A stretch of DNA of 64,000 bases from Lewinellaceae bacterium (lineage in GTDB: Bacteria; Bacteroidota; Bacteroidia; Chitinophagales; Saprospiraceae), in contig JAHELJ010000023.1 of the NCBI GenBank assembly GCA_024644235.1, positions 1 to 64,000 of the forward strand. The letters run 5' to 3'. The notes beneath the pieces are model-generated. The model was not told the DNA's origin and made no database searches. It worked only from the letters and a program-made list of their open reading frames with translations. Both the position numbers and the translations under genes were made by a program. Shown here one piece after another: positions 9,931-27,187 of this stretch (positions are counted from its first letter, which is position 1; the number at the start of each line of letters is the position of its first letter).

Positions 9931-11730
9931 ATGCAGCACATCCGCAATTTTTGTGTAATTGCTCATATTGACCACGGTAAGAGCACTTTGTCGGACCGGC
10001 TATTGGAGCACACTAAGGCGATCTCGGAGCGTCAGTTGCAGGCTCAGACACTTGATGATATGGACATTGAACGGGAGCGGGGAATCACCATAAAGAGCCA
10101 TGCTGTTCAACTTTATTACCAACACTCGGACGGAGTGAAATACACCTTCAACCTGATCGATACACCTGGTCATGTTGATTTCAGTTATGAAGTGTCACGT
10201 TCCATCGCGGCTTGTGAAGGTGCTTTGCTTCTGATCGATGCTACCCAGGGTATTCAGGCGCAGACGATCTCAAATCTCTACCTTGCTATAGAGCATGATC
10301 TTGAGATCATTCCGATCCTCAACAAGGTCGATATGGAAAGCGCCATGATCGAGGAAGTGGCTGAGCAGATCATCGACCTGATCGGGTGCGATATGGATGA
10401 GATCATTCTTGCGAGTGGAAAAACAGGAGAAGGAGTTGAAAAAATCCTGGCAGCTATTGTCGAACTCATTCCTCCACCAAAGGGGGATCCTAAAGCTCCA
10501 CTGCAGGCGTTGGTTTTCGACTCGGTCTTTAACCCATTTAGAGGAGTGATCGTCTATTACAAGATTGTGAATGGTACGATTCACAAAGGAGACAGGGTGA
10601 AGTTCATTAACACCGGGAGGGAGTATGACGCCGACGAAATAGGTATTCTTCAGCTGAACCAAATGCCGAAAGACGAACTAAGTGCTGGCAACGTTGGGTA
10701 CCTCATCACTGGTATCAAGACGTCGAAGGAAGTAAAGGTGGGAGATACATTAACACATGTGGAGCGCCCTTGCTCCGACGGGATCAGGGGCTTTGAAGAT
10801 GTGAAGCCGATGGTGTTCGCGGGTATATTTCCAATAGACAACGAAGACTTTGAGGATCTGCGGGAAAGCCTTGAAAAACTGCAACTCAATGATGCTTCGC
10901 TAGTCTTCGAGCCTGAGAGTTCAGCCGCTTTGGGCTTTGGATTCCGTTGTGGTTTCCTGGGTATGCTTCATTTGGAGATCATCCAGGAGAGACTTTCCCG
11001 TGAATTTGACCAGGAAGTGATTACCACCGTTCCGAATGTTTCCTATCGCGCCTATCTGAAGAAAGAACCGGATAATTTAATGGTGATCAATACGCCCAAC
11101 GATATTCCTGACCCTATGTTACTCGACAGGGTTGAAGAACCTTACATCGAGGCCCAGATCATCACCATGCCAGATTACTTTGGTACGATTACGCGTCTTT
11201 GTATGGACAAGAGAGGTGTTATGACCAAACAACTTTACCTCACACCACAGAGAGTCGAGCTTACATTTGAGATGCCTCTAGCAGAGATTGTATTTGATTT
11301 TTATGATCGACTGAAATCTATCAGCCGGGGCTACGCCAGTTTTGACTATACTCCTTTGGATTATAGGGCGTCTGACCTGGTGAAAGTCGACATCCGCCTA
11401 AACGGAGACCCGGTAGACGCACTCTCAGCTTTGGTTCATCGCGAGAAAGCTGAAGGTTTTGGACGGAAGATCTGCAAAAAACTGAAGGAACTATTACCCA
11501 GACAACAATTTGTAATTGCCATTCAGGCAGCAATCGGAGCCAAGATCATCGCCAGGGAAACGATCTCCGCTTTACGAAAGGATGTTACCGCAAAGTGTTA
11601 CGGTGGGGATATCACCCGAAAACGAAAATTGCTAGAAAAGCAGAAGAAAGGGAAGAAGAAAATGAGGCAGATCGGGAATGTGGAAGTGCCTCAAAAGGCA
11701 TTTCTGGAAGTGTTGAAACTCAATGACTAA
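9931..11730 (+). CDS. lepA: Elongation factor 4 (back-translocase LepA)
   Basis: Ribosome-bound GTPase thought to back-translocate or remodel stalled ribosomes and to aid 30S assembly. The G1 motif [10 protein letters not shown] is at residues 10-19, G3 is DTPGHVDF, and G4 is LNKVDM. The LepA-specific C-terminal domain ends in [26 protein letters not shown], which separates it from EF-G. The start is taken at ATG 9931 (599 aa, family length), not at the in-frame ATG at 9901, because homologues begin with MxxIRNFCIIAHIDHG and the promoter lies between the two ATGs. Its TAA overlaps the converging gene's TAG in the shared CTAA. Confidence 0.97.
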
Positions 11731-14144
11731 CGGATAATCAACCGTTTTGTAACATAATTTCCATTCACGGTTACCTTGACCAGGTATATTCCCTGCGTGA
11801 GATTGTTTACATCAAGTTCCATGTCGCGCTGAATGGTCTTGCGTACTCCGAATAATTTCCTTCCCGAAAGATTGTACACATCAATATCGGCCTCTGACCC
11901 CAGATTCTTGGGAAATTCCAACCTGAAGAAGCCAGAAGTGGGATTGGGATTGATCTTCACTTGACGGATATTTGATACTTCAGTTACAGGAGTTGTCAGA
12001 TCGACAGTAACATTAAAAGTGTTGAACTGACATCCATTCGCATCGGTCAAGCGCAAGTTGTAATTTCCAAATTCAAGATTAGTCGGATCCTGCACCATCG
12101 AAGCCGTACCTTCCGGGCCAATCCACTCATATTGATAGGGAGGTGTGCCTCCGAATACGCTAATGAATACGTTACCCTTTCCATCCGGAGCCTTGATGCT
12201 GTCGAGCCTGACAAATATGCCTACGGGCTCACCTACAAAAATGTTGCGAACAAATGTACATTCGGTGGTGTCGGTGACCGTAACAGAGTAATCACCAGGT
12301 GCCAGGTTTACTGCGGACTGAGTAGTTTGTCCGTTGCTCCATTGAAACTGGTAATCTCCTTCTCCATTTTCGATATTCACGGTGGCTGATCCGTTGGCCT
12401 GGCCAGGACATCGCACGTCGTTAACATCCACTGTCGCAGATATCCGTTTCTCGACTGTCACATCAAAGGAGCAAACGGCCTGGTTACCATCATTATCGGT
12501 GTAGGTATAAGTCTCCGTTGAAGTACCCACTGGAAAAACACTTCCTGAACCAAGTCCATTTATTGCTGTAGTACTGCCGTTGGGACAATTGTCTACGATC
12601 TGTGGACGGGTATAATTTACTACCCCGTCGCACGCAGATACGGTAATATCCTCGGTACAATTATAGTAGGGGAGAAGTGTATCCAGAACAGTAATTTCGA
12701 TCTCTCTCGAAGCCAGGTTCAGGTTGTTGTCGATTACTGTGAACTCAATGTACTGCTTACCAATATCAGAGCAATCAAAAACGGTTTGAGTGAGTTGGAT
12801 ATCAAGGATATCACAATTGTCCGAACTGTTTGAATCCACTTGTTCGGGAGTCAATTCAACCACACCTGCTTCGTTTAAGTAAAGTGTCCAGAATTCGTCG
12901 CGAATAATCGGTCGGGGATTGATCTGGTCATCAATATTGACCATCGCTCCGGCTATCGCCATACAATTTTGAGCATCAGTGACCGTCACTTCATAGCCTC
13001 CAGAGGGGACTCCTATTAGATTTTGAGTGGTATCTCCGGTATTCCAAAGAAAGCTTACGGGAGGAGCTGCACCACTTACGAGGATATTAACTTCACCATC
13101 AGCATTTTCATCACAGGAAGTCGGTTCCACATTGATGGATAGAACGAGTGAACAATCAGCTACGAACAATTCGACCTCGCCAGAGGCCTGACAACCATTG
13201 GCATCTATTACCTGGATGGAGTAGGTGCCGACCGGAACATCCTCGATGCTCAACGTCAATCCACCGGTGTTCCAGATATAGGAGTAAGGTTGTGTTCCTC
13301 CCATCACATTTGCAATGATGGAGCCGTCGCTTGCTGTCTCAGAAGATGGTGTGTTAACTATGAACGACACCGTCAGTGTGTCGGGCTCCAATATCATGAA
13401 GGAATCTGTGACATGTTGATTTCCGAGATTGTCTTCGACAGAGCACTGGTAAATGCCAGGTTGTAGATTATTTATTGATGCGGCCGTGTCTCCGTTGTTC
13501 CACTCATATGTATAGGTTGTTCCCGGACCACTGGCAGAGATGGTAATTGAGCCATCATCAAAACCTTTGCACGATACATCCTGTAAGTCCTGAAGAGTAA
13601 CCTGGATCATAGTGTCTGAATGCATGGTATCCGACCCTTCGAAACTTTGTACAAAATCGTACAGCTCGTCCGTAGCGAGTTTGCCGATGTGGTAGATCGT
13701 TCTGTCGGGGTATACCCCATATATGGTGGGTAAGGCGTTTGGTTGATAGTCTCCATTCAATGTCGAATTATCAATGATCGGGTAGGGGGTACCGGTGATC
13801 CAGTCCCCCGCGGTCGCGTTAGTATTTCCCATCAGATCAGCCAACCCCATCACCGCATCTTTCTCGATGAATAATACCATGGCTTCATCAGTCCCATTAG
13901 GACCGTACAAAGTGTAAAAGTCCTTCAATGCGTCAGTGCGGTGATAATTCCAACATAAAGGACACCAGGCAGCGCTGAAATCTATAATTACTGTTTTACC
14001 CTGGCTCAGATAGCTATATAGGTGATGTTGTTTGCCATCAATATCGGTCACGTTAAAATCAGGAGCAATGACCCCGTTTGGAAGCTGGGCTCCTAACGGA
14101 ATCACTAGGATCAGAAGGATAAGGCAAGTAAGTAGTTTCTTCAT
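11727..14144 (-). CDS. Secreted redoxin-domain protein with SprB repeats, HYR domain and T9SS sorting domain
   Basis: An 805-residue exported protein. A signal peptide (residues 1-19) is followed by a TlpA/AhpC-like thioredoxin fold (21-165) with the redox motif AWCPLCW, cysteines 61 and 64. Several SprB-type repeats follow (pattern C..DG.I.I.V.GG..PY.Y.WN.G..T..I..L..G.Y.V.V.D..GC). Next is a HYR-like Ig domain (around [22 protein letters not shown]), two more SprB repeats, and a C-terminal Por sorting domain ([15 protein letters not shown], then GIYLVKV and a basic end). It probably acts on the outer surface. Substrate unknown. A TAAATTTG promoter element sits 40 nt upstream. Confidence 0.88.
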
Positions 14145-14348: not shown

Positions 14349-15332
14349 TTAAGACTCTTGGGAGTTCTGCGTTATACCGCTCTTGAAGAGAGATTCCACG
14401 AAAGCTTTTTTGTTGAATACTTGAAGCTGATCAATTCCTTCGCCGACGCCGATATATTTTATCGGAATTTTGAATTGATCTGAAATACCTATGGCAACTC
14501 CTCCTTTAGCGGTGCCATCCAATTTGGTTAGAGCCAGAGCGGAAACATCGGTTGCCTCCGAGAACTTCTTACATTGTTCGTAAGCATTCTGGCCAGTAGT
14601 AGCATCCAGAACCAGCAAGACCTCATGCGGGGCTCCAGGCATTTTCTTTCCGATGGAATTCCGAATCTTAGTCAATTCCTTCATGAGATTAAGTTTGGTG
14701 TGTAACCGGCCAGCGGTATCAATCAACACAACATCTTTCTCATTATTCAGTGCATACTGCACCGTTTCATAAGCCACAGCGGCAGGGTCAGACTTCATGC
14801 CTTTGCTGAAAAAATCACAGCCAACCCGTTCTGACCAGATCTTCAATTGATCTACCGCAGCCGCCCTAAAGGTGTCGCCTGCTCCAAGAACCACTCGCCA
14901 TCCTCGGTTTTTGTACTGGTGAGCCAATTTACCGATAGTAGTGGTTTTCCCTACTCCGTTTACTCCAACCACTAGCACGACATGAGGGAGTTTGTCTTCG
15001 GCAAACTCAAAGTCATCCAGGTCTTCGGTATTATTTTCAGCGAGCAGACTGATGATCTCATCCTTCAAAATAAAATTGAGCTCCTCTGTCGATACGTACT
15101 TATCTCTCGCTACCCTACCTTCAATACGCTCAATGATTCGAACTGTGGTATCAATCCCTACATCTGCTGCGATGAGGATGCTTTCAAGCTCATCAAGTAC
15201 TTCGTCGTCGACCTTATTCTTTCCGGCTACTGCTCTGGTGATCTTGGAAAAAATACTTGATTTGGTTTTCTCCAAACCCTTGTCCAGATCTTCTTCTCTT
15301 TTCTTGGTAAAAAATTTGTCGAAGAATCCCAT
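14349..15332 (-). CDS. ftsY: Signal recognition particle receptor FtsY
   Basis: SRP-family GTPase that docks the Ffh-ribosome complex at the membrane for co-translational insertion. A short charged N-terminus (residues 1-40, KKREEDLDKGLEKTK) replaces the long acidic A-domain of E. coli. The N-domain follows, then G1 GVNGVGKTTTIGKLA (123-137), the DTAGR G3 motif, and TKLDGTAKGG (G4 plus the SRP GTPase signature). The 327 aa are usual for Bacteroidota. Last gene of the rpmB-rpmG-DUF4295-ftsY run, 107 bp after DUF4295. Confidence 0.96.
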   Translation of the reverse strand: MGFFDKFFTKKREEDLDKGLEKTKSSIFSKITRAVAGKNKVDDEVLDELESILIAADVGIDTTVRIIERIEGRVARDKYVSTEELNFILKDEIISLLAENNTEDLDDFEFAEDKLPHVVLVVGVNGVGKTTTIGKLAHQYKNRGWRVVLGAGDTFRAAAVDQLKIWSERVGCDFFSKGMKSDPAAVAYETVQYALNNEKDVVLIDTAGRLHTKLNLMKELTKIRNSIGKKMPGAPHEVLLVLDATTGQNAYEQCKKFSEATDVSALALTKLDGTAKGGVAIGISDQFKIPIKYIGVGEGIDQLQVFNKKAFVESLFKSGITQNSQES

Positions 15333-15439
15333 GCTTGCTCTGTATTTGATAGATGAATTCTAAACTAAACAAAATAAAAACAGGTAGTTGATTACCTCAA
15401 CTACCCGTGGATCTGCTGAATGTCTTTTAGTTAGAGATC

Positions 15440-15613
15440 TTATTTCTTCGCAAAGAAAGTTTTAGTCTCATCCTTGTGAATCATCATCTCTTTGTATGTG
15501 TACTTGCCGGTCTTAGGATCTTTAACTGGTTTGACTACCTTCACGAAATCCCTGCCAGATCCGGCATTTGCAGATCGCTGTGCAACTCGTGCGTTCTTAC
15601 TTACTTTTGCCAT
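15440..15613 (-). CDS. DUF4295 family small basic protein
   Basis: A 57-residue lysine/arginine-rich protein starting MAKVSKNARVAQRSANAGSG and ending DETKTFFAKK. The central YTYKEMMIHKDE is the DUF4295 hallmark. The family is essentially restricted to Bacteroidota and sits between rpmG and ftsY. Composition and context suggest a ribosome-associated protein; this is an inference. It starts 2 bp after the rpmG stop. Confidence 0.9.
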   Translation of the reverse strand: MAKVSKNARVAQRSANAGSGRDFVKVVKPVKDPKTGKYTYKEMMIHKDETKTFFAKK

Positions 15614-15615
15614 GA

Positions 15616-15804
15616 TTACTTAATTTCTTTGTGAATTGTGTATTTCTTCAAAATGGGATTAAACTTCTTCAATTCCAAACGATCAGGAGTGTTTTTCCGG
15701 TTCTTTTGAGTCACATATCTGCTTGTTCCCGGTTTGCCAGAGGCTTTATGCTCTGTACACTCAAGAATGACCTGGATTCTATTTCCTTTTGCTTTTTTTG
15801 CCAT
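15616..15804 (-). CDS. rpmG: 50S ribosomal protein L33
   Basis: A 62-residue L33, recognised by the start [19 protein letters not shown] and the end [18 protein letters not shown]. It has only one cysteine, so it is the zinc-independent (C-minus) form with no CxxC ribbon. It follows rpmB by 23 bp on the same strand. Confidence 0.96.
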
Positions 15805-15827
15805 GATTCAAAATCTTTTTGGTTGGA

Positions 15828-16079
15828 TCAGCGCAACTTTACTCCTGTACTGACTCCTTTGCGTTCCAGTTTTTTCAAATAGGCATATAAGCCCAATTTA
15901 TTAATTGTGCGCAGTGCCTTGGCACTGATCTTTAGAGTGACCCACCGGTTCAGCTCGGGTATGAAAAAGCGCTTCTTTTGCAGATTGGGTTTAAATACCC
16001 GCTTTGTTCTCCGATTGGAGTGCGAGACATTATTCCCAGAAATCGGACGCTTACCTGTAAGTTGACAAACTCTTGACAT
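15828..16079 (-). CDS. rpmB: 50S ribosomal protein L28
   Basis: An 83-residue L28. The signature [23 protein letters not shown] is at residues 5-27, followed by KPNLQKKRF and the C-terminal [13 protein letters not shown]. It has a single cysteine, so the zinc-free form. First protein gene after the tRNA-Arg gene, 48 bp downstream. Confidence 0.96.
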
Positions 16080-16127
16080 AATCTATTCTATTTACTGGCT
16101 CAGTACTCCTGTCCTCGCCGGTCTCTG

Positions 16128-16201
16128 TGACCACGGAAGGATTCGAACCCTCAACCTCCTGATCCGTAGTCAGGTGCTCTATCCAATTGAGCTACGTGGC
16201 C
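16128..16201 (-). tRNA. tRNA-Arg (anticodon ACG)
   Basis: A 74-nt cloverleaf on the minus strand. The acceptor stem is GGCCACG paired with CGTGGTC (one G-T), with discriminator A. The D-arm is GCTC-AATTGGAT-AGAGC. The anticodon stem-loop is CCTGA-CTACGGA-TCAGG with anticodon ACG, and the T-arm contains GGTTCGAATCC. CCA is not encoded. The wobble A is expected to be edited to inosine to read CGU/CGC/CGA. It lies between a TACATTTG promoter and rpmB. Confidence 0.96.
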
Positions 16202-16276
16202 AGGCGTCTGCATGTTCTCACCTCCTCGAATTGACAAATCGTGTGTGTTTTAAGACCACTTTTGCCAAACAGGTTG

Positions 16277-16284
16277 CAAATGTA
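16277..16284 (-). promoter_or_regulatory. -7 element TACATTTG upstream of tRNA-Arg and the rpmB operon
   Basis: A perfect TAnnTTTG match with a TTTC 19 bp upstream, near the ideal -33 spacing. The transcript would begin about 70 nt before the tRNA. No terminator was seen between the tRNA and rpmB, so the tRNA may be cut from the leader of the ribosomal-protein mRNA. Confidence 0.6.
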
Positions 16285-16401
16285 GTGCTTATTTGCGGTA
16301 ATTGAAAGACCCTGAATCCAAAAAAAAAGTTTGTCCCTCAGGCCACGTTTTGGCATGATCCTGTATCTAGTTATTGAAGCCCATCCAAAATTTGATTCAC
16401 C

Positions 16402-19400
16402 ATGAAGCTAATTTTAACTTTCGGATTACTTGCCATCTTTTTGGGATCACCGTCTTATATCGATGCTCAAAACTGTGCCATCGATGCGGTAGTAGCGGAT
16501 CTGAGTCCATGCGACAATGGACACTTTGTAGCCATTATCAACTTTGCTCACGAGAATACCAGTAATGAGGGATTCTCCGTTACCGGCAATGGAAATGACT
16601 ATGGAAATTTCTCTTATGATCAACTACCTGTGGAAATAGGTCCACTGGCCGGAGATGGCATCACGGACTACGAATTTGTTGTAACCGATCTGGGCGATCC
16701 CCAGTGTAGTGATTTTGTCATTGTGGGGGTTGTGGATTGCCCTCCTCCATGTGCAGTCGAAGGCTTGGTTGTTGACCCCGGAGAATGTACCGCTCCCTCA
16801 ACCTATGCGGCAGTAGTGAACTTTGAAGCGGTAGGATTCACCCATTTTGATCTTTTTGTCAATGGTGAGTTCCACAGCTTTCATGCTGTGAGTGAGCTAC
16901 CTCTGGAACTAAATAATGTCCCGAATGGAGGATCTGGGGTAGATCTGATAAAGATATGTGCAAATGACAATCCGGAATGTTGTAAGGTGGTAGAAGTGTT
17001 GGCTCCGGATTGTGCAGGTATCTGTGAAATTTCGAATTTGGTAGCCACTCCGTTACCCTGTGATGGCGATCAGTTCTCCGTTAAGCTAAACTTCGAATTT
17101 GCCAACAATCCATCAGAGTTTTTTACTGTTCAAGGTAATGGTGTGAATTATGGTGAATTTCCATATAGCCAGCTGCCAATCACCCTGGGACCCTTCCCTG
17201 GAGATGGACAGACCCCTCTGGAATTTCTGGTAAAAGATGCAGCGAATCCCGAGTGTCAGGCTTTCACTGAGTTGGATGCAATCTCTTGTGGTTGTGTCAT
17301 AACAGAACTTGTGGTCGATCCCGGCACTTGTACATCTGATTCAACCTACTCTGCCTTTGTCAACTTCAATGCTCACGGCTTCCAAGCATTTGACCTCTAT
17401 GTTGATGGAGATTTCTTTCACAGCTACCAGGTTGCCCAATTACCACTCGAGTTGGAGCATATCCCGTACAACGGGACCAACTTCGGGGTGATTAAGGTCT
17501 GTGCAAACGACAACCCGGAGTGTTGTAAAAGCAAGGAATATCCGGTGCCGAACTGTCAACCCGGCTGTGAGCTTGGTGTACTTCAACTCACCAGATCAGA
17601 ATGTGATGGACAGGCTTTTAATGTGAAGCTGAATTTTGAATATTCCGGAAATATTTCCGAGACATTTGAAGTGTTTGGCAATGGCGTTCACTACGGCACT
17701 TATGCCTACTCTGCTTTGCCAATCACCATTGGACCGTTGGATGGAAATGGCCAGACCATTTACGAATTTGTTGTGAAGGATTCTGAACATCCCGATTGCC
17801 AGACCGCAGCTGAGCTTGGATCCATTTTTTGTGGTTGCGAGATTGGAGAGCTGTTCGTTGAGACAGGCCAATGCCTCGGAGAAGGAAGCTATCAGGTAGC
17901 TTTAGACTTTGAATCTGCCGGCTTCTCCTCCTTCAATGTTTTTTCCAATGGCCAGCTGGTGGGATCCTGGCATGTCAGTGATCTTCCCATTGTCATCGAG
18001 CAGTTTCCCGCAAGTGGACATCCAACTGACGCACTAAAGGTTTGTGCTCGTAATGTGGATGCTTGCTGCCGAAGCACAGAAGTGGTGGCTCCGGACTGTG
18101 CGGTGCTAGCCTGTGAGATTTTTGAACTGCATGCTGCTCCATTGCCATGTGATGGGGGAGAATTCTTTGTGGAAATAAACTTTGAAACCAGTGGTAATCA
18201 TTCAGAAACATTCAAAGTAGCAGGTAATGGAAAGATTTATGGCACCTATAAGTATAGTGAGCTTCCGATAATCGTAGGTCCACTGAAAGGAGACGGCACT
18301 GTCCCGTACGAATTTATTGTATCAGATACTGAACTGGATGGTTGCTCGGCAGAAACAGTTATCGATCCCATATCGTGTGGATGTGAGGTAGGTCAAATCG
18401 AGTACAATTCAGGTGATTGCACATCTGATTCCACTTACCGCGTCACTATAAATTTTGAGGCCTTTGGATTTGAATCTTTTGACGTGTATGTCAATGATCA
18501 TTTTCTCAAGCATGCCTTGGTGAGTGAGTTGCCACTGACTTTGGAACAATTTCCTGCCAGTGGTCATGCATTTGATGTATTAAAGGTCTGTGCAAATGAT
18601 CAGCCAGACTGTTGCCGGACGGTAGAGATAGCCGCTCCAGACTGTGTGATTGCTCACTGCGAGATCTATGATCTGACAGCCCATCGCACTGATTGTGACT
18701 CTGCTCACTTCTATGTCGAGATAGATTTTGAATACTCAGAACCTAATTCCGGACATTTTCAAGTGACCGGGAACGGTGTCCACTACGGAACCTTTGCCTA
18801 TGAGAACTTGCCCGTGAAGGTAGGCCCATTGCCTGGTGACGGAAAGGCCTACGAGTTTGCCGTGTTTGATCAGCAGTTCGAGGATTGTGGTGCATTCACA
18901 GTCATAGATGGTGTGTTTTGTGGCTGCGAAATCGGAGAGCTACGGGTTGAGACAGGTGAATGTACTTCGGATTCAACCTACATCGTTCATCTCAATTTCG
19001 AATCTCATGGTGTACACTCTTTCGATGTGTTTGCCAATGGAAAGTTCCTGAAGCATGCGTCCATCAACGAACTGCCATTGAAACTTGAAGCATTTCATGC
19101 CAGTGGCAATCCCTTTGATCTGATAGAAGTTTGCGCAAACGACAATGATATCTGCTGTGCAGCTGCAGAGATTGCCGCACCGGATTGTATCCTGGTGCCA
19201 TGTGAAATCTTGGCGCTAGAAGCTGCAGCTACAGATTGCGATAGTGCCGGTCATTATTATGTAAAGCTCAATTTTGATCCGGCCGGTTCCCATTCAGAGT
19301 ATTTTGTGGTCGAGGGCAATGGACATGTCTTTGAATACAAATACGCAGAACTGCCCGTCGAAATAGGACCATTTAAAGGGAATGGAGACCTGCAGAATAA

Positions 19401-20823
19401 ATTTGTGGTGTATGATGCGCATAGAGATGCCTGTCATGCGGCAGTTGAGTTGGGACCAGTCTTTTGTGGTTGTCACATTGGCGATATCAAGACTGAAATT
19501 GGAAATTGCACTTCGGATGCAGCAACCTATGCTGTAGCCTTGAATTTTGAATCCCGGGGTTTTGAAGCTTTTGAGTTATATGTCAATGATGAATTATTTG
19601 AGAAATACGAAGTTTCACAGCTTCCGATTGAAATACCCAATTTCCCGGCTAGTGGTCGGAAAGTTGATGTAATCAAGATCTGTGGGATTGGTACCGATTG
19701 TTGCATCACTAAAGAAATTGAAGCACCTGATTGTGCCGTAATTCCCTGTGAGATTGGAACAGTCCATGCTGAAGTGACCGATTGCGATGATGAAGGACAC
19801 TTTTATGTGTTCCTCAACTTTGAACACAAGGGCACAGGTGAGATGTTTAAGGTGGTCGGAAATGGTAAAGAGTACGGTCAATTCAAGTATACAGATCTGC
19901 CGGTGAAGATCGGACCTCTGGTGGGTAATGGCGATATCTTTTACGAGCTTGGGGTGACTGACCTACATCACGATGGATGTCATGCTGCCGTAGAAATAGG
20001 CAGGGTGATTTGTCCCGTCTTTTGCCAACCCCATGAGATCCTAGCCCAAGCTGGTGAATGTCTGAATAACCGTACATACCTCTTGCATATTGATAATATT
20101 GTAAGTCCGTTTTCCGCCTATGACATTTATGTCAATCATGAATACATGGGATTTTACACGCATGAGAACCTACCGATCCAGTTGGAAGTAGAGGCTTCCG
20201 GATCGGGCTTTGATTTGGTCACTGTGTGTGTAAGCGATAATGAGACTTGTTGTACGACTATTGAAGTAGCGAGTCCCGATTGCACCATCCACGATTGCAA
20301 GCTCACAGATATGGTGCTGGAAACCGATGTTTGTGAAAACGACTCAGTGGCGGTAAAGATGGATTTCCATTATGAACATCAGAGTGATCAGGGATTTTCC
20401 GTGATATCCAATGGCGAGCACATCGGAGACTTCAGATATGAAGACCTTCCGGTCAGCCTCGGCAAATTTGCCGCAGATGGACAGACGGATTACGTAATTC
20501 AAGTTACAGATTTGGTCAACGACCGGTGTGTGCTCAGAGGTGAACTGGCTCCAATTGTATGCCCGACCAGCATACCAGAGAACGAAAAGATCTTAATTGT
20601 TCAGAGTTCCAACCAAAGGATAGCACTTAGAATCCCGGATTTAATCAAGGAGAGAACCAGATTAGAGGTATTTAGTGCCCATGGGTATCCGGTATATGAC
20701 CTGGATTTTTCAAGCCAGTCCGACCATGTATTGTTACAATTGCCCTACTTGCACGAAGGAATCTACTTTGTGAAAATGAAATCAAAACTTGGAGGGCACT
20801 CTACTCGATTTATGATAAGATAA
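16402..20823 (+). CDS. Giant cysteine-rich A/B-module repeat protein with T9SS sorting domain
   Basis: 1473 residues. A signal peptide (1-22, cut after DAQ) is followed by 15 modules of about 91 residues (25-1390) in strict alternation A-B-A-B, eight A and seven B. The last 83 residues look like a Por sorting domain (LEVFSAHGYPVYDLDF, then GIYFVKMKS and RFMIR). A modules carry four cysteines and the core VxGNGxxYGxFxYxxLPVxIGPLxGDG. B modules carry six and the core SFDVYVNGxF, SELPLxLExFPASG, VCANDNPDCC. By counting motifs there are about 74 cysteines, all inside the modules. It is probably a disulfide-stapled stalk or adhesin on the cell surface; no catalytic domain is visible. It stands alone, ending at a terminator. 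No known domain name recognised for the modules. Confidence 0.85.
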   Translation: MKLILTFGLLAIFLGSPSYIDAQNCAIDAVVADLSPCDNGHFVAIINFAHENTSNEGFSVTGNGNDYGNFSYDQLPVEIGPLAGDGITDYEFVVTDLGDPQCSDFVIVGVVDCPPPCAVEGLVVDPGECTAPSTYAAVVNFEAVGFTHFDLFVNGEFHSFHAVSELPLELNNVPNGGSGVDLIKICANDNPECCKVVEVLAPDCAGICEISNLVATPLPCDGDQFSVKLNFEFANNPSEFFTVQGNGVNYGEFPYSQLPITLGPFPGDGQTPLEFLVKDAANPECQAFTELDAISCGCVITELVVDPGTCTSDSTYSAFVNFNAHGFQAFDLYVDGDFFHSYQVAQLPLELEHIPYNGTNFGVIKVCANDNPECCKSKEYPVPNCQPGCELGVLQLTRSECDGQAFNVKLNFEYSGNISETFEVFGNGVHYGTYAYSALPITIGPLDGNGQTIYEFVVKDSEHPDCQTAAELGSIFCGCEIGELFVETGQCLGEGSYQVALDFESAGFSSFNVFSNGQLVGSWHVSDLPIVIEQFPASGHPTDALKVCARNVDACCRSTEVVAPDCAVLACEIFELHAAPLPCDGGEFFVEINFETSGNHSETFKVAGNGKIYGTYKYSELPIIVGPLKGDGTVPYEFIVSDTELDGCSAETVIDPISCGCEVGQIEYNSGDCTSDSTYRVTINFEAFGFESFDVYVNDHFLKHALVSELPLTLEQFPASGHAFDVLKVCANDQPDCCRTVEIAAPDCVIAHCEIYDLTAHRTDCDSAHFYVEIDFEYSEPNSGHFQVTGNGVHYGTFAYENLPVKVGPLPGDGKAYEFAVFDQQFEDCGAFTVIDGVFCGCEIGELRVETGECTSDSTYIVHLNFESHGVHSFDVFANGKFLKHASINELPLKLEAFHASGNPFDLIEVCANDNDICCAAAEIAAPDCILVPCEILALEAAATDCDSAGHYYVKLNFDPAGSHSEYFVVEGNGHVFEYKYAELPVEIGPFKGNGDLQNKFVVYDAHRDACHAAVELGPVFCGCHIGDIKTEIGNCTSDAATYAVALNFESRGFEAFELYVNDELFEKYEVSQLPIEIPNFPASGRKVDVIKICGIGTDCCITKEIEAPDCAVIPCEIGTVHAEVTDCDDEGHFYVFLNFEHKGTGEMFKVVGNGKEYGQFKYTDLPVKIGPLVGNGDIFYELGVTDLHHDGCHAAVEIGRVICPVFCQPHEILAQAGECLNNRTYLLHIDNIVSPFSAYDIYVNHEYMGFYTHENLPIQLEVEASGSGFDLVTVCVSDNETCCTTIEVASPDCTIHDCKLTDMVLETDVCENDSVAVKMDFHYEHQSDQGFSVISNGEHIGDFRYEDLPVSLGKFAADGQTDYVIQVTDLVNDRCVLRGELAPIVCPTSIPENEKILIVQSSNQRIALRIPDLIKERTRLEVFSAHGYPVYDLDFSSQSDHVLLQLPYLHEGIYFVKMKSKLGGHSTRFMIR
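16474..20571 (+). repeat. Tandem repeat array: 15 coding modules of about 273 bp (A/B alternation)
   Basis: In-frame repeats within the giant surface gene. A modules begin at Cys25, Cys208 and Cys389 and B modules at Cys117 and Cys298, so the period of an A+B pair is about 182 residues (546 bp). Modules are diverged in DNA but keep cysteine and glycine positions. Internal B4 and B5 are closest to a consensus; A8 and B7 are most diverged, as expected for an old array that grew from the middle. Confidence 0.85.
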
Positions 20824-20853
20824 GCCTCGTAGTAATCATATTCTTTGTAATGA

Positions 20854-20885
20854 AAGGTTCTGCTTCCAGAAGCGGGACCTTTTTT
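20854..20885 (+). terminator. Intrinsic terminator of the giant repeat gene
   Basis: A 12-bp stem (20854-20865 with 20870-20881, three T-G wobbles) around a CCAG loop, running into a T tract. It lies 31 bp after the stop codon and before the ABC transporter genes. Confidence 0.75.
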
Positions 20886-20941
20886 ATTGCCTTGAAAAAA
20901 AATCGTATCTAAGCGTTTCAAAAATTTCAACTGCTGATCAG

Positions 20942-21577
20942 ATGCTGCTTGCTAGTGGATTAAAATTTGCTTACGATGGTGGAGAGCAGATGTCCTTTCC
21001 CGATATACGCTGCGATAAAGGTGAGCACTGGCTCTTACTTGGCAGTTCAGGAAGCGGCAAGACCACATTACTACATCTGTTGGCCGGTCTGCGTACTCCT
21101 GCAGCGGGCGAAGTGCGGATTGGAGAGACTGAGTTAGGCTCAATGCCGGCCTCGCAACTGGATGTGTTTCGAGGAAGAAATATTGGAATTGTTTTTCAAC
21201 AGCCTCACTTTGTGAGGTCTTTGAATGTTTCGGAAAATCTTTTACTCACCCAATACCTTTCGGGAGTAAAGCCAAATCAGGAACGAATCAGTCAGATGTT
21301 ATACCGTCTGGGTATTCAACACAAGGAGCAGGCACAAACTTCGGAGCTCAGTCAGGGAGAACAGCAGCGACTGGCTCTTGCCAGGGCCCTGATAAATGAC
21401 CCCGCGGTCATCCTCGCCGATGAACCAACCTCTGCGCTGGATGATGGCAACACCGATGCCGTAATCAATCTCCTGGAGGAGCAGGCGGAAAGGTCTGATG
21501 CTACCCTGTTGGTGGTTACACATGATACAAGACTCAAGAGTCGATTCGAAAAGCACATAATCCTGGAGGCTCTATGA
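20942..21577 (+). CDS. ABC transporter ATP-binding protein (LolD/MacB type)
   Basis: A 211-residue nucleotide-binding subunit of the type VII (MacB/LolCDE/FtsEX) ABC class, which powers periplasmic or outer-membrane-directed mechanotransmission rather than classical import. Walker A GSSGSGKT is at 34-41, the Q-loop at FQQPHF, the signature LSQGE at 136-140, Walker B ILADEP at 157-162, and the H-loop at VVTHD. It overlaps the permease gene by 4 bp (ATGA), so they form a coupled pair. Confidence 0.93.
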   Translation: MLLASGLKFAYDGGEQMSFPDIRCDKGEHWLLLGSSGSGKTTLLHLLAGLRTPAAGEVRIGETELGSMPASQLDVFRGRNIGIVFQQPHFVRSLNVSENLLLTQYLSGVKPNQERISQMLYRLGIQHKEQAQTSELSQGEQQRLALARALINDPAVILADEPTSALDDGNTDAVINLLEEQAERSDATLLVVTHDTRLKSRFEKHIILEAL

Positions 21578-22869
21578 ATCTGTTTAAACTGAGTTGGAAA
21601 AATATTCTCTACAAGCCCTGGTCAACACTACTGAGTATTGTTCTCTTTGCTTTGGGTGTAGGTTTGATATCCCTACTCTTTTTATTGGAAAAACAGCTAC
21701 AGGATAATTTCGAAAAAAATCTCGCTGGAGTTGATCTGGTCATTGGCGCTAAGGGAAGTCCCCTGCAGTTGATCTTGAGCAGTATGTATCACATAGATGC
21801 TCCTACCGGAAATATTAGCCTTAAGGAAGCCCGACCCTTCCTCAATCCCCAACATCCACTCATCGAAAAGGCACTCCCGCTCTCTATGGGAGACAACTAC
21901 CGTGGATACCGGATTGTAGGGACATTGCCAGAGATTCTTTCCTGGTACGAAGCAAAGGTAGGCACTGGAAAGGTATGGTCCCGAAACTTTGAAGTCACGC
22001 TGGGATATGGAGTGGCAAAGGATCTCGATCTGGCCATCGGTGATAAGTTCAAAAGCTCCCATGGCCTCATAGAAGACGACCAGTTGGAGCATGATGATGT
22101 GCATCATGATTTCGAAGTAGTGGGGATTCTAAATCCCACCGGATCGGTCCTGGATCAATTGATACTTACCAGTACACAGACATTTTGGATGGTGCATGAT
22201 CATGGCGACGAAGGTACATCCGAGGAGGAAGCTCACGATGATCATGAACATCATGACCACGATCACGATCATACACATGATGATCCCATGATACCTCGTC
22301 CTCTCCTCGAAGAAGATGAAAATCAGGAGATCACTTCACTGCTTTTAAGATTTAGTGGTCGGAATTTTCAGGCCTTAAATATGCAGCGCAACATCAATGA
22401 AAACACCGATCTTCAGGCGGCCACTCCTGCCATTGAGATCAATCGCCTCTTCAATCTGATGGATACCGGAGAGCAAGCTCTGCGGATCCTGGCATTTGTG
22501 ATCATCTTGGTGTCCGGCCTTAGTGTCTTCATTTCCCTGCTGGGTTCTCTCCGGGAGCGACGCTATGAATTGGCCTTGATGCGGGTGATGGGAGGGAGTC
22601 CGAAAACCCTTTTTGTTTTAATTATCCTCGAAGGCCTGCTTTTGGCTGCTATCGGGTTTGTGGTTGGGATTACGTTGAGTCATGTTGGCATGCAAGTGCT
22701 CGGTAGTTCTCTTGAATCCAGTTACCGGTACGACTTTACCGGTCTGATGTTTTTACCCAAAGAGTGGTTCTTGCTGGCGGGTGCTTTGGCAATCGGATTG
22801 GTTGCTGCACTGATACCTGCCTGGCAAGCTTCCAGAACAGATATTTCCGATACGTTGACGGAGGGCTGA
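21574..22869 (+). CDS. FtsX/LolE-like ABC transporter permease with histidine-rich periplasmic loop
   Basis: 431 residues with the type VII permease layout: TM1 at about 18-38, a large periplasmic domain (40-290), then three TM segments near 297-320, 345-370 and 395-415, closing with LIPAWQASRTDISDTL. This matches MacB/LolC/YbbP-type subunits. Between residues 208 and 235 is a segment with ten histidines among aspartates and glutamates (DHEHHDHDHDHTHDD), typical of Zn/Cu/Ni-binding loops and absent from ordinary LolC/E. It is coupled to the ATPase gene and ends 2 bp from the converging subtilase gene. The substrate could be a lipoprotein, a lipid or a metal-linked cargo; undecided. Confidence 0.85.
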   Translation: MNLFKLSWKNILYKPWSTLLSIVLFALGVGLISLLFLLEKQLQDNFEKNLAGVDLVIGAKGSPLQLILSSMYHIDAPTGNISLKEARPFLNPQHPLIEKALPLSMGDNYRGYRIVGTLPEILSWYEAKVGTGKVWSRNFEVTLGYGVAKDLDLAIGDKFKSSHGLIEDDQLEHDDVHHDFEVVGILNPTGSVLDQLILTSTQTFWMVHDHGDEGTSEEEAHDDHEHHDHDHDHTHDDPMIPRPLLEEDENQEITSLLLRFSGRNFQALNMQRNINENTDLQAATPAIEINRLFNLMDTGEQALRILAFVIILVSGLSVFISLLGSLRERRYELALMRVMGGSPKTLFVLIILEGLLLAAIGFVVGITLSHVGMQVLGSSLESSYRYDFTGLMFLPKEWFLLAGALAIGLVAALIPAWQASRTDISDTLTEG

Positions 22870-22871
22870 TC

Positions 22872-24476
22872 CTAGTTTTTGATCAGGATTTTAGATAATA
22901 CACCATTGGAGGTGAGCAGTTCGACTACGTAGGCTCCAGGCTTCCAATCTTCTGCTTTGATGGTGAGCTGATGATCTCCTTTCAAATTATTTGCAGACCA
23001 CATTACTCTCCCCAATATGTCTTTGACAACAATGCGCTGTAAGAACCCGGGTCCCTTGAATTCCAAGACACTTTGTGCGTTGGTAGGATTTGGATAAATT
23101 CTCAGGTCACCAGGATCGGGATCTGCTACAGAGGTGACGATATCATAAGTCTTGTCAAGGTTGAGTCTTCCGCCGGTGACGGTACGATCAAGAGTTGGCA
23201 AAGGTGTCACCCCTTCCATTATAAATCGTTTTACCAAACCTGCAGCTTCCGTCGGACTGACCCGGGCGATATCACATAATGGAACTTCCGAAAGGGCATA
23301 TAATAAGCCTATGGCTCCCGATACATGGGGTGCGGCATAAGAGGTGCCACCATAGGTGCGGTAGCTTTCATTGTCGTCAGCTCCGTAGATTTGCTCCCCG
23401 GGTGCACCCAGGTCTACATTCACCCGCCCGAAGCCGGCAACGGCCAATTCATCGTCTTGATTCGTATTCGTCACCACGATGAGATGATCGCTGGAGCAGT
23501 CGCTTGGAATATCGCCAAAGACATCGGTATTTACCTGATCATTTTCAGTGGCACCCACGCCCAGGATCCCTACTTCTCCCAGCGCATTGAACATGTCGCA
23601 AAGCATTGGAAAGTCCTCCTCAAAAAAGCCTTCAATTCCCCATGAATTATTGATTGCGACGATAAATGCGCCCTCCTCACCATTACTATCATTATATTTC
23701 TTCCGCAGAGAAATCACATAATTAAAGGCCTCCATGACGGTGGCTTCGGTTTTTTCCTCAGAACTGATCATCAACAACTTGACCTGCCAATTGAGTCCGG
23801 CAATACCGAGGGAATTATTCGTGGAGGCGCCGATTACGCTAGCGACACTGGTGCCATGATAGTCCACCGCAATTTCATGCCGGTCATTTCCTGTGTCCAG
23901 GTTGAGACCCAAGACGTCATCGGTATAACCGTTAGCGTCGTCATCAAATGAGTTGTTGGCGATTTCACCAGGATTACGCCACAGATGGGCAGCAACATCG
24001 GGATGAGATGGATCCAGGCCCGAGTCAAATACAGCAATGACAATGGTATCACCACAGGGTGTCACTCCCCCGGTGGTATGCTCCCATAAATCTGGAGCCG
24101 AGATCCGCTCCAGATTCCACTGTTGATTAAAGAGCGGATCATCAGGGGTAGCGGAGGATCTTGATTTGAGCTTGCGATTATACTGCACCGCCTCGACACC
24201 CTCAATATTTTCTAACTGCTTCCTGACGGCTTCAAGGTTATCCTGTGGATCAAATTGCAGCAATTGAATCGTCCTATCCGGGCTTAAGGATTTCTGTGAT
24301 CTAATGTCAATCAGTGCAGATCGGTTGTTTTTTTTGATTTGATCCATCGCAAAACCTGCCTTGAGCCTAAGGATGAGTTGTCCCTCAACGACTTGACCAG
24401 CAAGCGGGAGAGCAGTTAAACCCAAGATGATAGTCGCCACGATCAGAGCCCGATGCAAAGGTTTACATTTTATCAT
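22872..24476 (-). CDS. Secreted S8 family serine peptidase (subtilase) with T9SS sorting domain
   Basis: 534 residues from the ATG at 24476, which places a clean signal peptide (CKPLHRALIVATIILGLTALPLAG) at the N-terminus; an upstream in-frame ATG at 24500 would add eight residues. An inhibitor-like propeptide (30-105) precedes the catalytic domain with Asp151 (VFDSGLDPSHPD), His207 (YHGTS) and Ser379 (GGTSYAAPHVSG). The oxyanion Asn is in NNSWG (276-280). A Por sorting domain with YPNPTNAQS ends the protein. It degrades proteins outside the cell. The gene follows the propeller-like gene by 49 bp. Confidence 0.93.
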   Translation of the reverse strand: MIKCKPLHRALIVATIILGLTALPLAGQVVEGQLILRLKAGFAMDQIKKNNRSALIDIRSQKSLSPDRTIQLLQFDPQDNLEAVRKQLENIEGVEAVQYNRKLKSRSSATPDDPLFNQQWNLERISAPDLWEHTTGGVTPCGDTIVIAVFDSGLDPSHPDVAAHLWRNPGEIANNSFDDDANGYTDDVLGLNLDTGNDRHEIAVDYHGTSVASVIGASTNNSLGIAGLNWQVKLLMISSEEKTEATVMEAFNYVISLRKKYNDSNGEEGAFIVAINNSWGIEGFFEEDFPMLCDMFNALGEVGILGVGATENDQVNTDVFGDIPSDCSSDHLIVVTNTNQDDELAVAGFGRVNVDLGAPGEQIYGADDNESYRTYGGTSYAAPHVSGAIGLLYALSEVPLCDIARVSPTEAAGLVKRFIMEGVTPLPTLDRTVTGGRLNLDKTYDIVTSVADPDPGDLRIYPNPTNAQSVLEFKGPGFLQRIVVKDILGRVMWSANNLKGDHQLTIKAEDWKPGAYVVELLTSNGVLSKILIKN

Positions 24477-24525
24477 ATTTGGATGATTCGGAGATAGCAT
24501 GAATCAAGAGTTAGATCCCGGCAAT

Positions 24526-25401
24526 CTATTGCCTGTCATTCACAACGGCTAAGAGGTTGACTCCATTGTAGGCCAGCCTTGAAATCGCCTGGAGGCCGGC
24601 AGGTTCCAAATCTGCCACTTCGACCCATTGGCTTCCCTCTGACGGCCCAAGGGCATAGATCTTACTTTCCTTAGCCATCAGAATGGTTCCGTCGCGCATG
24701 ACCTCAAAATCTTCAGAACCAGGTAAGGTTTTTTTGACTACATCTATGGAATGGGTCTCCGGATGCACTTTCTTAATAAACCAATATTCTTCTGAAATTT
24801 TATGTACAAATGCCAGGCTTCCATCAGGTAATTTTTTTAGACATCTGCCCACTTTGGAGCTGATGAATTTCTTCGTTCCATCAGCAATATTGCAAATGAA
24901 GAGTTGACTGGGATCACCCACTTCAAATACGGCCACTTGCCTGCGATCGATCCAACAGTAGTAGCCTACCTTGGTGATGTCTTTAAGGATCGCCTTGCCT
25001 CCATGAGATCGATCCAATGGATATGACCAAAGTATTTGCTTTTCCTGGTCATCACCGTCCACCAATACACAACTGACATGGTCGCGGTCAGGACCTGACA
25101 TTGGCGAATATTCGCGGTCTGGTGTTTTCGTGACTCTGATCAATTGATCATTCCTAATGTTTAATTGGTAGATGTCAGTTTCGATGGAGGAGGGAACTCG
25201 ACCGGCAGAAACCACCATGGTGAAAAGATCCAGGAAGTGGGGTTGATTGGTATAGCCACCCGGATTAAAGCCCGACAGCAATCTCGGGTTACTCACATCA
25301 AGGCGATCACTGAATTTATGGATATCAAAAAGGAACAGATCAGATTGTTGAGCAAAGAGCCCAACAGGTATAAGAAAGAGGGTGATAAAAAGCTTCAACA
25401 T
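24526..25401 (-). CDS. Exported TolB-like beta-propeller protein, function unknown
   Basis: 291 residues from ATG 25401; the longer frame uses a TTG and hides the signal peptide MLKLFITLFLIPVGLFAQ. The mature part shows repeated short beta patterns of TolB/WD40-like propellers (DIYQLNIRNDQLIRVTKT, ILWSYPLD, QLFICNIADGTKKFISS, KIYALGPSEG). There are no catalytic motifs. It may read out or bind proteins or sugars in the periplasm. It sits upstream of the secreted subtilase on the same strand, so a joint role is possible but unproven. Confidence 0.65.
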   Translation of the reverse strand: MLKLFITLFLIPVGLFAQQSDLFLFDIHKFSDRLDVSNPRLLSGFNPGGYTNQPHFLDLFTMVVSAGRVPSSIETDIYQLNIRNDQLIRVTKTPDREYSPMSGPDRDHVSCVLVDGDDQEKQILWSYPLDRSHGGKAILKDITKVGYYCWIDRRQVAVFEVGDPSQLFICNIADGTKKFISSKVGRCLKKLPDGSLAFVHKISEEYWFIKKVHPETHSIDVVKKTLPGSEDFEVMRDGTILMAKESKIYALGPSEGSQWVEVADLEPAGLQAISRLAYNGVNLLAVVNDRQ

Positions 25402-25441
25402 TCGATGATAAGGTACAAAGATCAAGTGAATAAATGTTCAC

Positions 25442-26992
25442 TTATGGCTTTCTGGCACCGGTGAAGAGCCGGTTCCAGCGAATACCGTTTGCCATACTAC
25501 CGTCTTTGGTCGAAAACCAGATGAATAGGGGTTTGCCCACCACATGATCTTCGGGTACAAAGCCCCATACTCGGGAATCTTCCGAGTTGTGCCGGTTATC
25601 ACCCATCATCCAGTAATAGTCCATTTTAAAGGTATACTGGCTGGCCTCTGCTCCGTTTATGAAGACCTTACCCTCCCTCACTTGCAGATCATTCTTTTCA
25701 TATTTAGAAATGATACGTTTGTATGGTGCGAGTGTTGAGGTAGAGATTGGTACGGTGACACCTTTTTTCGGGATATAGATCGGTCCATAATTATCAACCG
25801 TCCAGTCCGCATTTATTGTTTGATCATAGGGAAATAGGGGACGGGGTTGCTGAGGCAAGGGATTGACTGTAACATTACCCATGCCTTTTATCTTCTCCAC
25901 CTGTTGTTCGTCGAGCATGAAAATCGGATCCCTGGCATCACTGAGATTGACACCCCACTCCTGGAGCTTTCGAAGGTTCAATGGTCCACCCTGCGACCGC
26001 ACTATGTATGCAAATTGGATATGGGTAGGATTCTGTGCTGGCTCTCCATTGAGGTGGACTTGTCTATCGATAATTTGCAGGCTGTCTCCCGGTAGTCCGA
26101 TGCAGCGCTTGATGTAATGATCCATTTTGTCCATTGGTCGGACGACAATTTCGTCCTTCATGCTGACGGTGCTGGGAACATTACCACGTCTTACATCATA
26201 GACACTGTATGTGCGACCAGGGGTAATAATAACGCTGTCGCCCTCAGGGTAGTTGAAGACGACGGGATCATTGTGATCAATTGATTCGATAGGAGTCAAT
26301 CTGGAGTAATCGAGACTAGGCTTCCGGAAGTATGATTCCGCATCAAAAAAAGGTATCCTATTGTGTAGTAGCGGGATCATCGCGATGGTCATCGGCATAC
26401 GAACGCCATAGTGAGCTTTGCTGACGCAGAGAAAATCTCCAACGAGTAATGAGCCCTCCATTGAGGAGGTGGGAATCTTGTACATCTCGATCAGGAACAT
26501 TCGGATGAAGGCAGCTGCAAAGACCGCAAATATGATAGACTCAGTCCATTCCCGAAGACCGCTCTTATGGAATGGATTGTTTCTGACCAGTTTCTTTAGT
26601 TGATTTTTATTTCCCGCTTTTTGAGCCTTTACGATCTTAGCCTTGTAGTCCCTTTCTGCTGCCATAATTGGCCCTTCATAGGTTGACTCATCTCGAAATC
26701 CGATCAGGAAAAAAGCTACCGGAGCTAATACCACGGCTACTACAGATTGCCAAAATGTATGCTGTCCGAATGATCTCACCAAGTCAATACAGAGAGCCGC
26801 AAAAATGAAAATGTTGACGATGGGAAAAAGTAACCAGGCAGCGTGCCATTTCTTACGACCCACTAATTCTGCCCAGACCACAAAATTCAAACCCGGCACT
26901 AGTGCTTTCCATCCCGGCTGCCCTGCTTTTTCAAACACTTTATAAAGGCTGACACTAACCAGAATGTAGAGGATCAGTAGAAAGATAATCAT
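25442..26992 (-). CDS. lepB: Signal peptidase I with N-terminal membrane domain
   Basis: Removes signal peptides from exported proteins at the outer face of the inner membrane. The first 100 residues carry several membrane segments of the DUF5684 type (LYKVFEKAGQPGWKALVPGLNFVVW), an extension common in Bacteroidota. The S26 protease core has catalytic Ser177 (IPTSSMEGSL), Lys295 (HYIKRCIGLPGD) and the MGDNRHNSEDSRVWGFVP box near the end. At 516 aa it is long, with a large inserted beta domain between the Lys and GDN boxes. Promoter element TATATTTG lies 37 nt upstream. Confidence 0.95.
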   Translation of the reverse strand: MIIFLLILYILVSVSLYKVFEKAGQPGWKALVPGLNFVVWAELVGRKKWHAAWLLFPIVNIFIFAALCIDLVRSFGQHTFWQSVVAVVLAPVAFFLIGFRDESTYEGPIMAAERDYKAKIVKAQKAGNKNQLKKLVRNNPFHKSGLREWTESIIFAVFAAAFIRMFLIEMYKIPTSSMEGSLLVGDFLCVSKAHYGVRMPMTIAMIPLLHNRIPFFDAESYFRKPSLDYSRLTPIESIDHNDPVVFNYPEGDSVIITPGRTYSVYDVRRGNVPSTVSMKDEIVVRPMDKMDHYIKRCIGLPGDSLQIIDRQVHLNGEPAQNPTHIQFAYIVRSQGGPLNLRKLQEWGVNLSDARDPIFMLDEQQVEKIKGMGNVTVNPLPQQPRPLFPYDQTINADWTVDNYGPIYIPKKGVTVPISTSTLAPYKRIISKYEKNDLQVREGKVFINGAEASQYTFKMDYYWMMGDNRHNSEDSRVWGFVPEDHVVGKPLFIWFSTKDGSMANGIRWNRLFTGARKP

Positions 26993-27029
26993 ACGATTGT
27001 TGAGATTTCTCTATTCATCAAAGCGGAGG

Positions 27030-27037
27030 CAAATATA
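27030..27037 (-). promoter_or_regulatory. -7 element TATATTTG for signal peptidase I
   Basis: A perfect TAnnTTTG match on the minus strand with a leader of about 32 nt. It stands downstream of the terminator at 27131, so lepB is its own transcription unit. Confidence 0.6.
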
Positions 27038-27126
27038 ATCCAAAATGGCAGAGAGACTGGGTTACAGTTTCGTTAAATCAGGGTCTTTGCCGGGCTCCAA
27101 TCGACGAATGGGGGATTGTCGTCTAT

Positions 27127-27163
27127 AAAAAAAACTGCACCGCTGAACGGTGCAGTTTTTTTA
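27127..27163 (-). terminator. Strong intrinsic terminator after the coiled-coil gene
   Basis: A perfect 12-bp stem (27131-27142 with 27148-27159) around the 5-nt loop CTGAA, flanked by A and T runs on both sides. It would therefore work in either direction. It lies 25 bp after the stop of the 27188-28168 gene. Confidence 0.9.
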
Positions 27164-27187
27164 GTTTATGTTATGATGTCTTGCTAT

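Follow-up and report, generated by a model that had tools for sequence, protein, structure and literature searches.

The window analysed here is a stretch of 64,000 nucleotides (positions 1 to 64,000 of contig JAHELJ010000023.1, forward strand) from a Lewinellaceae bacterium of the family Saprospiraceae. It contains a conserved gene block at positions 14349-28168, ftsY-rpmB-subtilase-299 aa gene-lepB, which recurs in the family. The subtilase, a T9SS protein with Peptidase_S8 and Por_Secre_tail, is encoded on the minus strand (22872-24500); for the product of the 299-residue gene, Pfam returned nothing at E <= 0.001. The gene studied here, the array gene (16402-20823, plus strand), lies between rpmB and the subtilase. 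It is convergent with the subtilase, and an ABC transporter pair (20942-22869) is located between the two.

The array gene is an ORF of 1473 residues, its coordinates and length being exact. The encoded protein begins with a probable Sec signal peptide read by eye (residues 1-23, 16402-16470) and consists of modules and tail only. The 15 modules are arranged in the order (AB)7A (ABABABABABABABA), and the tail (residues 1388-1473, 20563-20820) comprises a linker and a probable T9SS type A C-terminal signal recognised by profile scores. Numbered along the protein, the A modules are encoded at 16471-16740 (module 1), 17020-17289 (3), 17563-17832 (5), 18109-18378 (7), 18655-18921 (9), 19198-19467 (11), 19744-20013 (13) and 20293-20562 (15), and the B modules at 16747-17013 (2), 17290-17556 (4), 17833-18099 (6), 18379-18645 (8), 18922-19188 (10), 19468-19734 (12) and 20020-20283 (14), all on the plus strand. 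The protein contains exactly 74 Cys (8x4 in A plus 7x6 in B), confined to residues 25-1387, and the motif C-x11-C is present in 15 of 15 modules. The Cys spacing is 11/64/10 in A (with 63 as middle value in module 9) and 11/56/6/0/9 in B (with 57/5 in module 12 and 55/6 in module 14), and from the last Cys of one module to the first Cys of the next there are linkers of one, three or four residues. When the protein is compared with itself, the peaks fall at 181-182 and 363 residues. Eight A and seven B modules can be ordered in 6435 ways, of which one alternates strictly. The first-pass annotation had described such an ORF with 15 strictly alternating modules, four Cys in A and six in B, and about 74 Cys, an even number and all within modules; the exact ORF, the Cys count and the module cut agree with it. 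It had also given the gene its own terminator, and 3′ of the stop codon there is indeed an intrinsic-terminator-like hairpin with a T run (20847-20890, plus strand), found by folding of this stretch. Of 200 shuffled versions of this stretch, three folded equally well, and a simple consensus scan did not list the hairpin.

Searches of Pfam, NCBIfam and PDB with the array protein returned no named family for the module, which upholds the earlier statement that no known domain name fits. When 89 pairs and 150 modules taken singly were searched against Pfam and PDB, the matches were all weak and scattered. The most frequent weak Pfam match was STIV_turret_2nd (7 of the 89 pairs and 2 of the 150 single modules), and BetaGal_ABD2 was matched by two pairs and two single modules. 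PDB sequence hits to a fucose-binding lectin (E 0.019) and a galectin (E 0.13) were taken as chance. A literature search at title and abstract level found no description of the module. A viral origin is not supported: none of the four viral loci (L031, L151-L153) has two or more modules, and in L031 the match covers 40 query residues at 41%. No relative turned up in a second viral scan, and PHROGs yielded only two families, with one member each, among the 89 pair sequences.

Altogether, 988 module copies were counted in 121 of the 153 loci examined (among the matches listed), counting only hits of at least 10 bits in ORFs that have two modules or more. At the core columns 2, 14, 80 and 91, Cys accounts for 96-100% of the residues present. 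Of 941 distinct modules, 174 are gapped in one of the core Cys columns and were set aside, which leaves 767 complete modules. In 226 of them columns 73 and 81 are both Cys, which corresponds to type B, and in four only one of the two is. A third cysteine type, D, has an extra pair different from that of B. In 69 of the 767 modules Cys occupies both column 64 and column 90, in eight only column 90, and in 38 only column 64, most of these 38 being clipped one residue before the terminal CC. After correction for this clipping, the 988 modules, duplicates included, divide into 558 A, 290 B, 115 D, 7 d and 18 others. Cys is missing from the second core column in 18 modules; six of these have a Cys within residues 9-18, and the other 12 have none there and therefore have an unpaired core Cys.

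That A and B come from one ancestor, as proposed in the first-pass annotation, is borne out by profile comparison. Profiles of A and B from the array gene alone matched at 97.6% over 88 columns, and profiles of 217 A and 101 B modules, taken from pattern-scan loci and retained at <55% identity, at 99.8% (E 1.3e-27) over all 91 columns. The corresponding values are 99.9% for A and D and 99.5% for B and D. In the alignment, Cys4 of A is equivalent to Cys6 of B, and Cys3 of A to the first residue of the CC pair of B. On these alignments we regard A and B as homologous; the same comparisons, together with the common AlphaFold2 fold described below, rule out that they are unrelated modules. A tree of 94 modules from nine proteins, in which few columns carry the support and the bootstrap has not settled, contains one branch (99/97) that splits A and D from B; module L063_2, scored as A, falls in the B part. 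Because this single branch is well supported, the A/B split appears to be older than the divergence of these proteins. The tree also joins module 14 with the second-last modules of L063, L068 and L003 (100/98) and module 12 with the fourth-last modules of L063 and L068 (97/86); the fourth-last module of L003, on a long branch, is placed elsewhere.

The further proposal that the modules multiplied as AB pairs finds support in some relatives and not in the array gene itself. L132 contains near-identical AB pairs (96-100%), and in L002 the AB pairs are closer than average, with modules 1-6 being 59-83% identical at distance two. In the array gene, however, similarities among A modules and among the B modules following them are uncorrelated (r = -0.05, p = 0.56), and for B and the following A the values are r = 0.58 and p = 0.13, which leaves pair-wise co-duplication within this gene unsupported. 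Its mean identities are 42% for A-A, 43% for B-B and 24% for A-B; the first two make a recent multiplication unlikely. For modules in one-type runs whose closest partner reaches >=60% identity, this partner is two modules off in 25 of 53 cases, against 11.3 expected for a random partner; a few loci dominate the count.

The AlphaFold2 model of modules 7 and 8 (A7-B8) has a mean pLDDT of 95.8 and a pTM of 0.69; seven strands occupy equivalent positions in the two modules. Its input consisted of 89 natural AB pairs, seven of them from the array gene; pairs other than A-then-B, pairs outside 165-215 residues, duplicates and pairs outside L032-L150 were left out. A second model comprised modules 13 to 15 and the tail (A13-B14-A15 plus tail) and was based on a 31-row alignment without tails outside 70-100 residues. 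It reached a pLDDT of 89.0 and a pTM of 0.49 and shows a seven-strand tail domain after a low-confidence linker. With Foldseek the A7-B8 model matched Ig and Fn3 sandwiches (best E 2.3e-5, the RIM-BP Fn3 array), and with VIA the best match was fibronectin (Z 10.8, rmsd 4.1 over 160 residues). According to the models, the module is thus an ordinary seven-strand Ig/Fn3-like sandwich of about 90 residues. The expected novel Ig-like fold was not obtained, since the model falls among known sandwiches, and the possibility that A and B are unrelated folds was settled in the negative by the same seven-strand sandwich predicted for both.

From the paired occurrence of the extra Cys and from the predicted strand order we infer that disulphides form and which Cys pair. 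Judging from the strand order, each of the extra pairs would be found at a common end of the sandwich, and so would Cys1-Cys3 and Cys2-Cys4. The source genome contains two DSBA-family matches (45-46 bits) and no VKOR match.

For the tail, curated sorting-signal models gave 14.3-14.7 bits in the context of the whole protein and 20.7 bits for the tail alone, which is below the cut-off of 23. A profile built from the tails of 73 relatives gave 32.1 bits, with a maximum of 7.1 bits in 500 shuffles, and on this basis the T9SS sorting signal named in the first-pass annotation is probable. Tails qualified if 60 residues or more follow the last module and the ORF is complete at the 3′ end; in the resulting 74-row alignment, from which L052 was left out as a copy of L015, 73 of the 74 tails, with the array tail among the 74, match TIGR04183 at E <= 0.1. 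The source genome has 128 sorting-signal matches, among which the array tail is not found, and it encodes the T9SS translocon and sortase, namely SprA (in two contig-end pieces) and PorU (1220 bits).

We consider it fairly probable that the array protein is a T9SS-exported, disulphide-stiffened surface rod, serving as a stiff adhesin or spacer; export, bonds, rod shape and binding would all be part of this reading. The signal peptide would direct the protein to the periplasm, where the modules of about 90 residues would each fold as an Ig/Fn3-like sandwich, pinned by two predicted disulphides in A and three in B. Cys1-Cys3 and Cys2-Cys4, the constant bonds, most probably fasten strands A and G to each other at either end of the sandwich, and the extra bond of B would tie the F-G hairpin. 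The T9SS would then export the protein and anchor it outside the cell. The linkers of 1-4 residues could restrict bending of the rod, and its reach would be set by the module number, which varies among the orthologues recovered. The predicted fold, the paired extra Cys, the tail profile, the TIGR04183 matches of 73 tails, the presence of SprA, PorU and 128 sorting-signal matches in the genome and the varying module number of the orthologues argue for this reading. Against it stand the pTM values of the pair model and the four-domain model, the tail score below the cut-off and the absence of the array tail from the 128 matches, the lack of a VKOR match beside only two DSBA-family matches, and the 12 modules with an unpaired core Cys. 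A dedicated surface fibre or receptor, as suggested in the first-pass annotation, is likewise putative.

The rod might instead bind carbohydrates, with lectin-like modules whose array gives avidity for polysaccharides. STIV_turret_2nd and BetaGal_ABD2 represent a weak galactose-binding-like resemblance, but each was matched by only two of the 150 single modules. Single modules also superpose on glycoside hydrolase domains with 2.1-2.3 A over 86-87 residues, although such superposition is common among Ig/Fn3 sandwiches. In five relatives (L036, L044, L123, L035 and L028), with C-terminal regions of about 330-510 residues, inspection by eye showed a dockerin-like region after the array and ahead of the sorting signal, and L036 has a sub-threshold cohesin match (20 bits, cut-off 24.1); both would suit a carbohydrate-binding rod, whereas the array protein itself has no dockerin-like region. 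Overall, we regard this reading as tentative and rather doubtful. Three of these relatives (L044, L123 and L035) have in addition a second repeated domain of about 180 residues, which is located N-terminally or as a spacer, before or between the modules, and ends in GGQE(F/L)xxDN(I/L)C-like motifs.

A kinship with the grappling-hook protein GhpA of Aureispira, a member of the Saprospiraceae, would make the array protein a device for catching prey or particles. Foldseek matched GhpA fragments (9flw with E 2.9e-4, 15% identity and TM 0.36; 9flp with E 3.4e-3), yet unrelated Fn3 chains score equally and Ig-like sandwiches are very common. Module profiles retrieved no GhpA chain at E <= 10 from a PDB copy that may lack GhpA chains. 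We therefore consider a relationship to GhpA highly improbable, and the stiff adhesin or spacer rod is preferred.

The module is a frequent, unnamed building block of Saprospiraceae. Among 100 related genomes, source included, 42 contain module matches, namely 36 of the 61 genomes that share the source's family code, f1, and 6 of the 39 from elsewhere in the order. In a 395-genome sample of the phylum, again with the source, seven genomes match; four belong to the source's family, and the remaining three are marginal (E 2.8e-4 to 8.4e-4, 53-56 of 91 positions) and are not counted as members. A pattern scan of named genomes found at least 119 loci, at least 91 of them with two or more modules, most of these multi-module loci coming from Saprospiraceae or, more broadly, Bacteroidetes/Chitinophagales. 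L137 and L142 contain short arrays of two and four A modules, respectively, with similar tails; L137, listed as Chlorobiota, may fall outside Saprospiraceae. Arrays are also present in the cultured relatives Portibacter and Lewinella cohaerens (loci L134, L095 and L092). The source genome has one array gene. Its only other module is a divergent one (25.1 bits, E 1.1e-4) in a metalloprotease protein (L162:187-2526, contig C143) with a HEIGHNFDCSHD metalloprotease motif recognised by eye, which speaks against recent paralogues of the array gene. On the evidence of this protein, secreted peptidases may carry single copies of the module as well.

Module orders are mixed. In 119 arrays (125 ORFs minus six overlaps), the numbers of neighbours are close to random for A and B, the observed/expected values being 256/231 for AA, 128/131 for AB, 139/132 for BA and 59/75 for BB, and D stands beside B above expectation (DB 40 versus 21, BD 29 versus 17), the expected frequencies having been counted before the correction for D/d (terminal CC). 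Strict alternation was found in 5 of 94 arrays of at least five modules: in the array gene, L002, L051 (where some modules are separated by spaces), L014 and L116. The longest array found, in frame +2 of L079, has 28 A modules in a 2633-residue ORF that runs off the stretch. Long one-type arrays such as this one, and the composition of the array protein, would also suit a structural envelope or matrix protein (a sheath or S-layer-like) that binds mainly itself and not a foreign surface. A single array gene in the source genome and the patchy occurrence within the source's family count against an envelope component, and we judge this role to be unlikely for the array protein, for which a stiff adhesin or spacer rod remains our preferred reading.

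The gene block around the array was surveyed by means of the 299-residue gene, which is present in 66 of 119 genomes (source and G038 included). The neighbourhood was examined in 40 further genomes of the 66, the remaining 24 being left out. None of the 40 stretches contains an array, and in seven of the 40 L28 and the subtilase are both visible and adjacent with no array between them. On these two results the array has the appearance of an insertion, specific to a lineage, that separates rpmB from the subtilase; the alternative is a loss elsewhere. Positional orthologues of the array gene are L063, L068 and L164 (in G038). All three lie beside a subtilase in convergent order, and these subtilases are 52-55% identical to that of the window. 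In addition, L28 and FtsY are present in L063, part of LepB in L068, and LepB together with a 326-residue gene in L164; an ABC transporter pair between array and subtilase was found in the window and not in these three loci. The number of modules is 15 in the array gene, 10 in L063, at least 8 in L068 and at least 5 in L164, the latter two ending at contig ends. The best similarity match of the array gene, L002, is located in a different neighbourhood. The order kept in the three orthologues could indicate that the array protein works with the neighbouring T9SS subtilase or is its substrate, being a pro-protein, inhibitor or scaffold. However, in the seven relatives with L28 and subtilase adjacent the subtilase exists without an array, and since relatives carry the conserved block without it, a functional unit of array and subtilase is weakened. 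We find such a partnership improbable and retain the exported rod.

The module is thus widespread, with mixed orders and a third cysteine type, and goes beyond what a single gene would suggest. The analysis defines an unnamed domain family, a candidate for a library such as Pfam. It covers many large surface proteins that curated models recognise mainly via their sorting signal. Modules of the same frame with alternative extra predicted disulphides, which occur naturally in rows of as many as 28, offer a test of how bond placement and order set the stiffness of bacterial surface rods. Some bacteria of the Saprospiraceae group are predators. It is conceivable, though speculative and quite unlikely, that the family possesses a private kit of one four-Cys Ig-like bead in three makes (without extra bond, F-G and loop-to-G), which would be strung in orders and lengths that differ by lineage, so that type and number of the beads tune stiffness and reach of a surface rod for holding prey or particles.

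Among known systems, tandem Fn3/Ig arrays (fibronectin 9p6s, RIM-BP 6q9m and the CbhA Fn3 structure 3pdd) resemble the array protein in their succession of seven-strand sandwiches, but identity is only 7-13%, the array protein has no match to Pfam fn3 (PF00041) at E <= 10, and each of its modules has 4-6 conserved Cys. GhpA of Aureispira (9flw, 9flp) comes from the same bacterial family and has Ig-like modules by structure match, but the array module profiles gave no sequence match to it at E <= 10 in the PDB copy searched. SprB-repeat proteins (PF13573), such as the neighbour encoded at 11727-14144, likewise combine repeated secreted modules with a T9SS tail, although PF13573 has no match at E <= 10 in the array protein. 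Compared with T9SS type A cargo (TIGR04183/PF18962), the array tail lacks an NP motif that is common in the relatives, and its score remains below the cut-off. The overall layout of a likely signal peptide, body and C-terminal signal is nevertheless the same, and the seven strands predicted for the array tail correspond to those of the solved C-terminal tail of RgpB, which has an Ig-like fold (PMC4804311).
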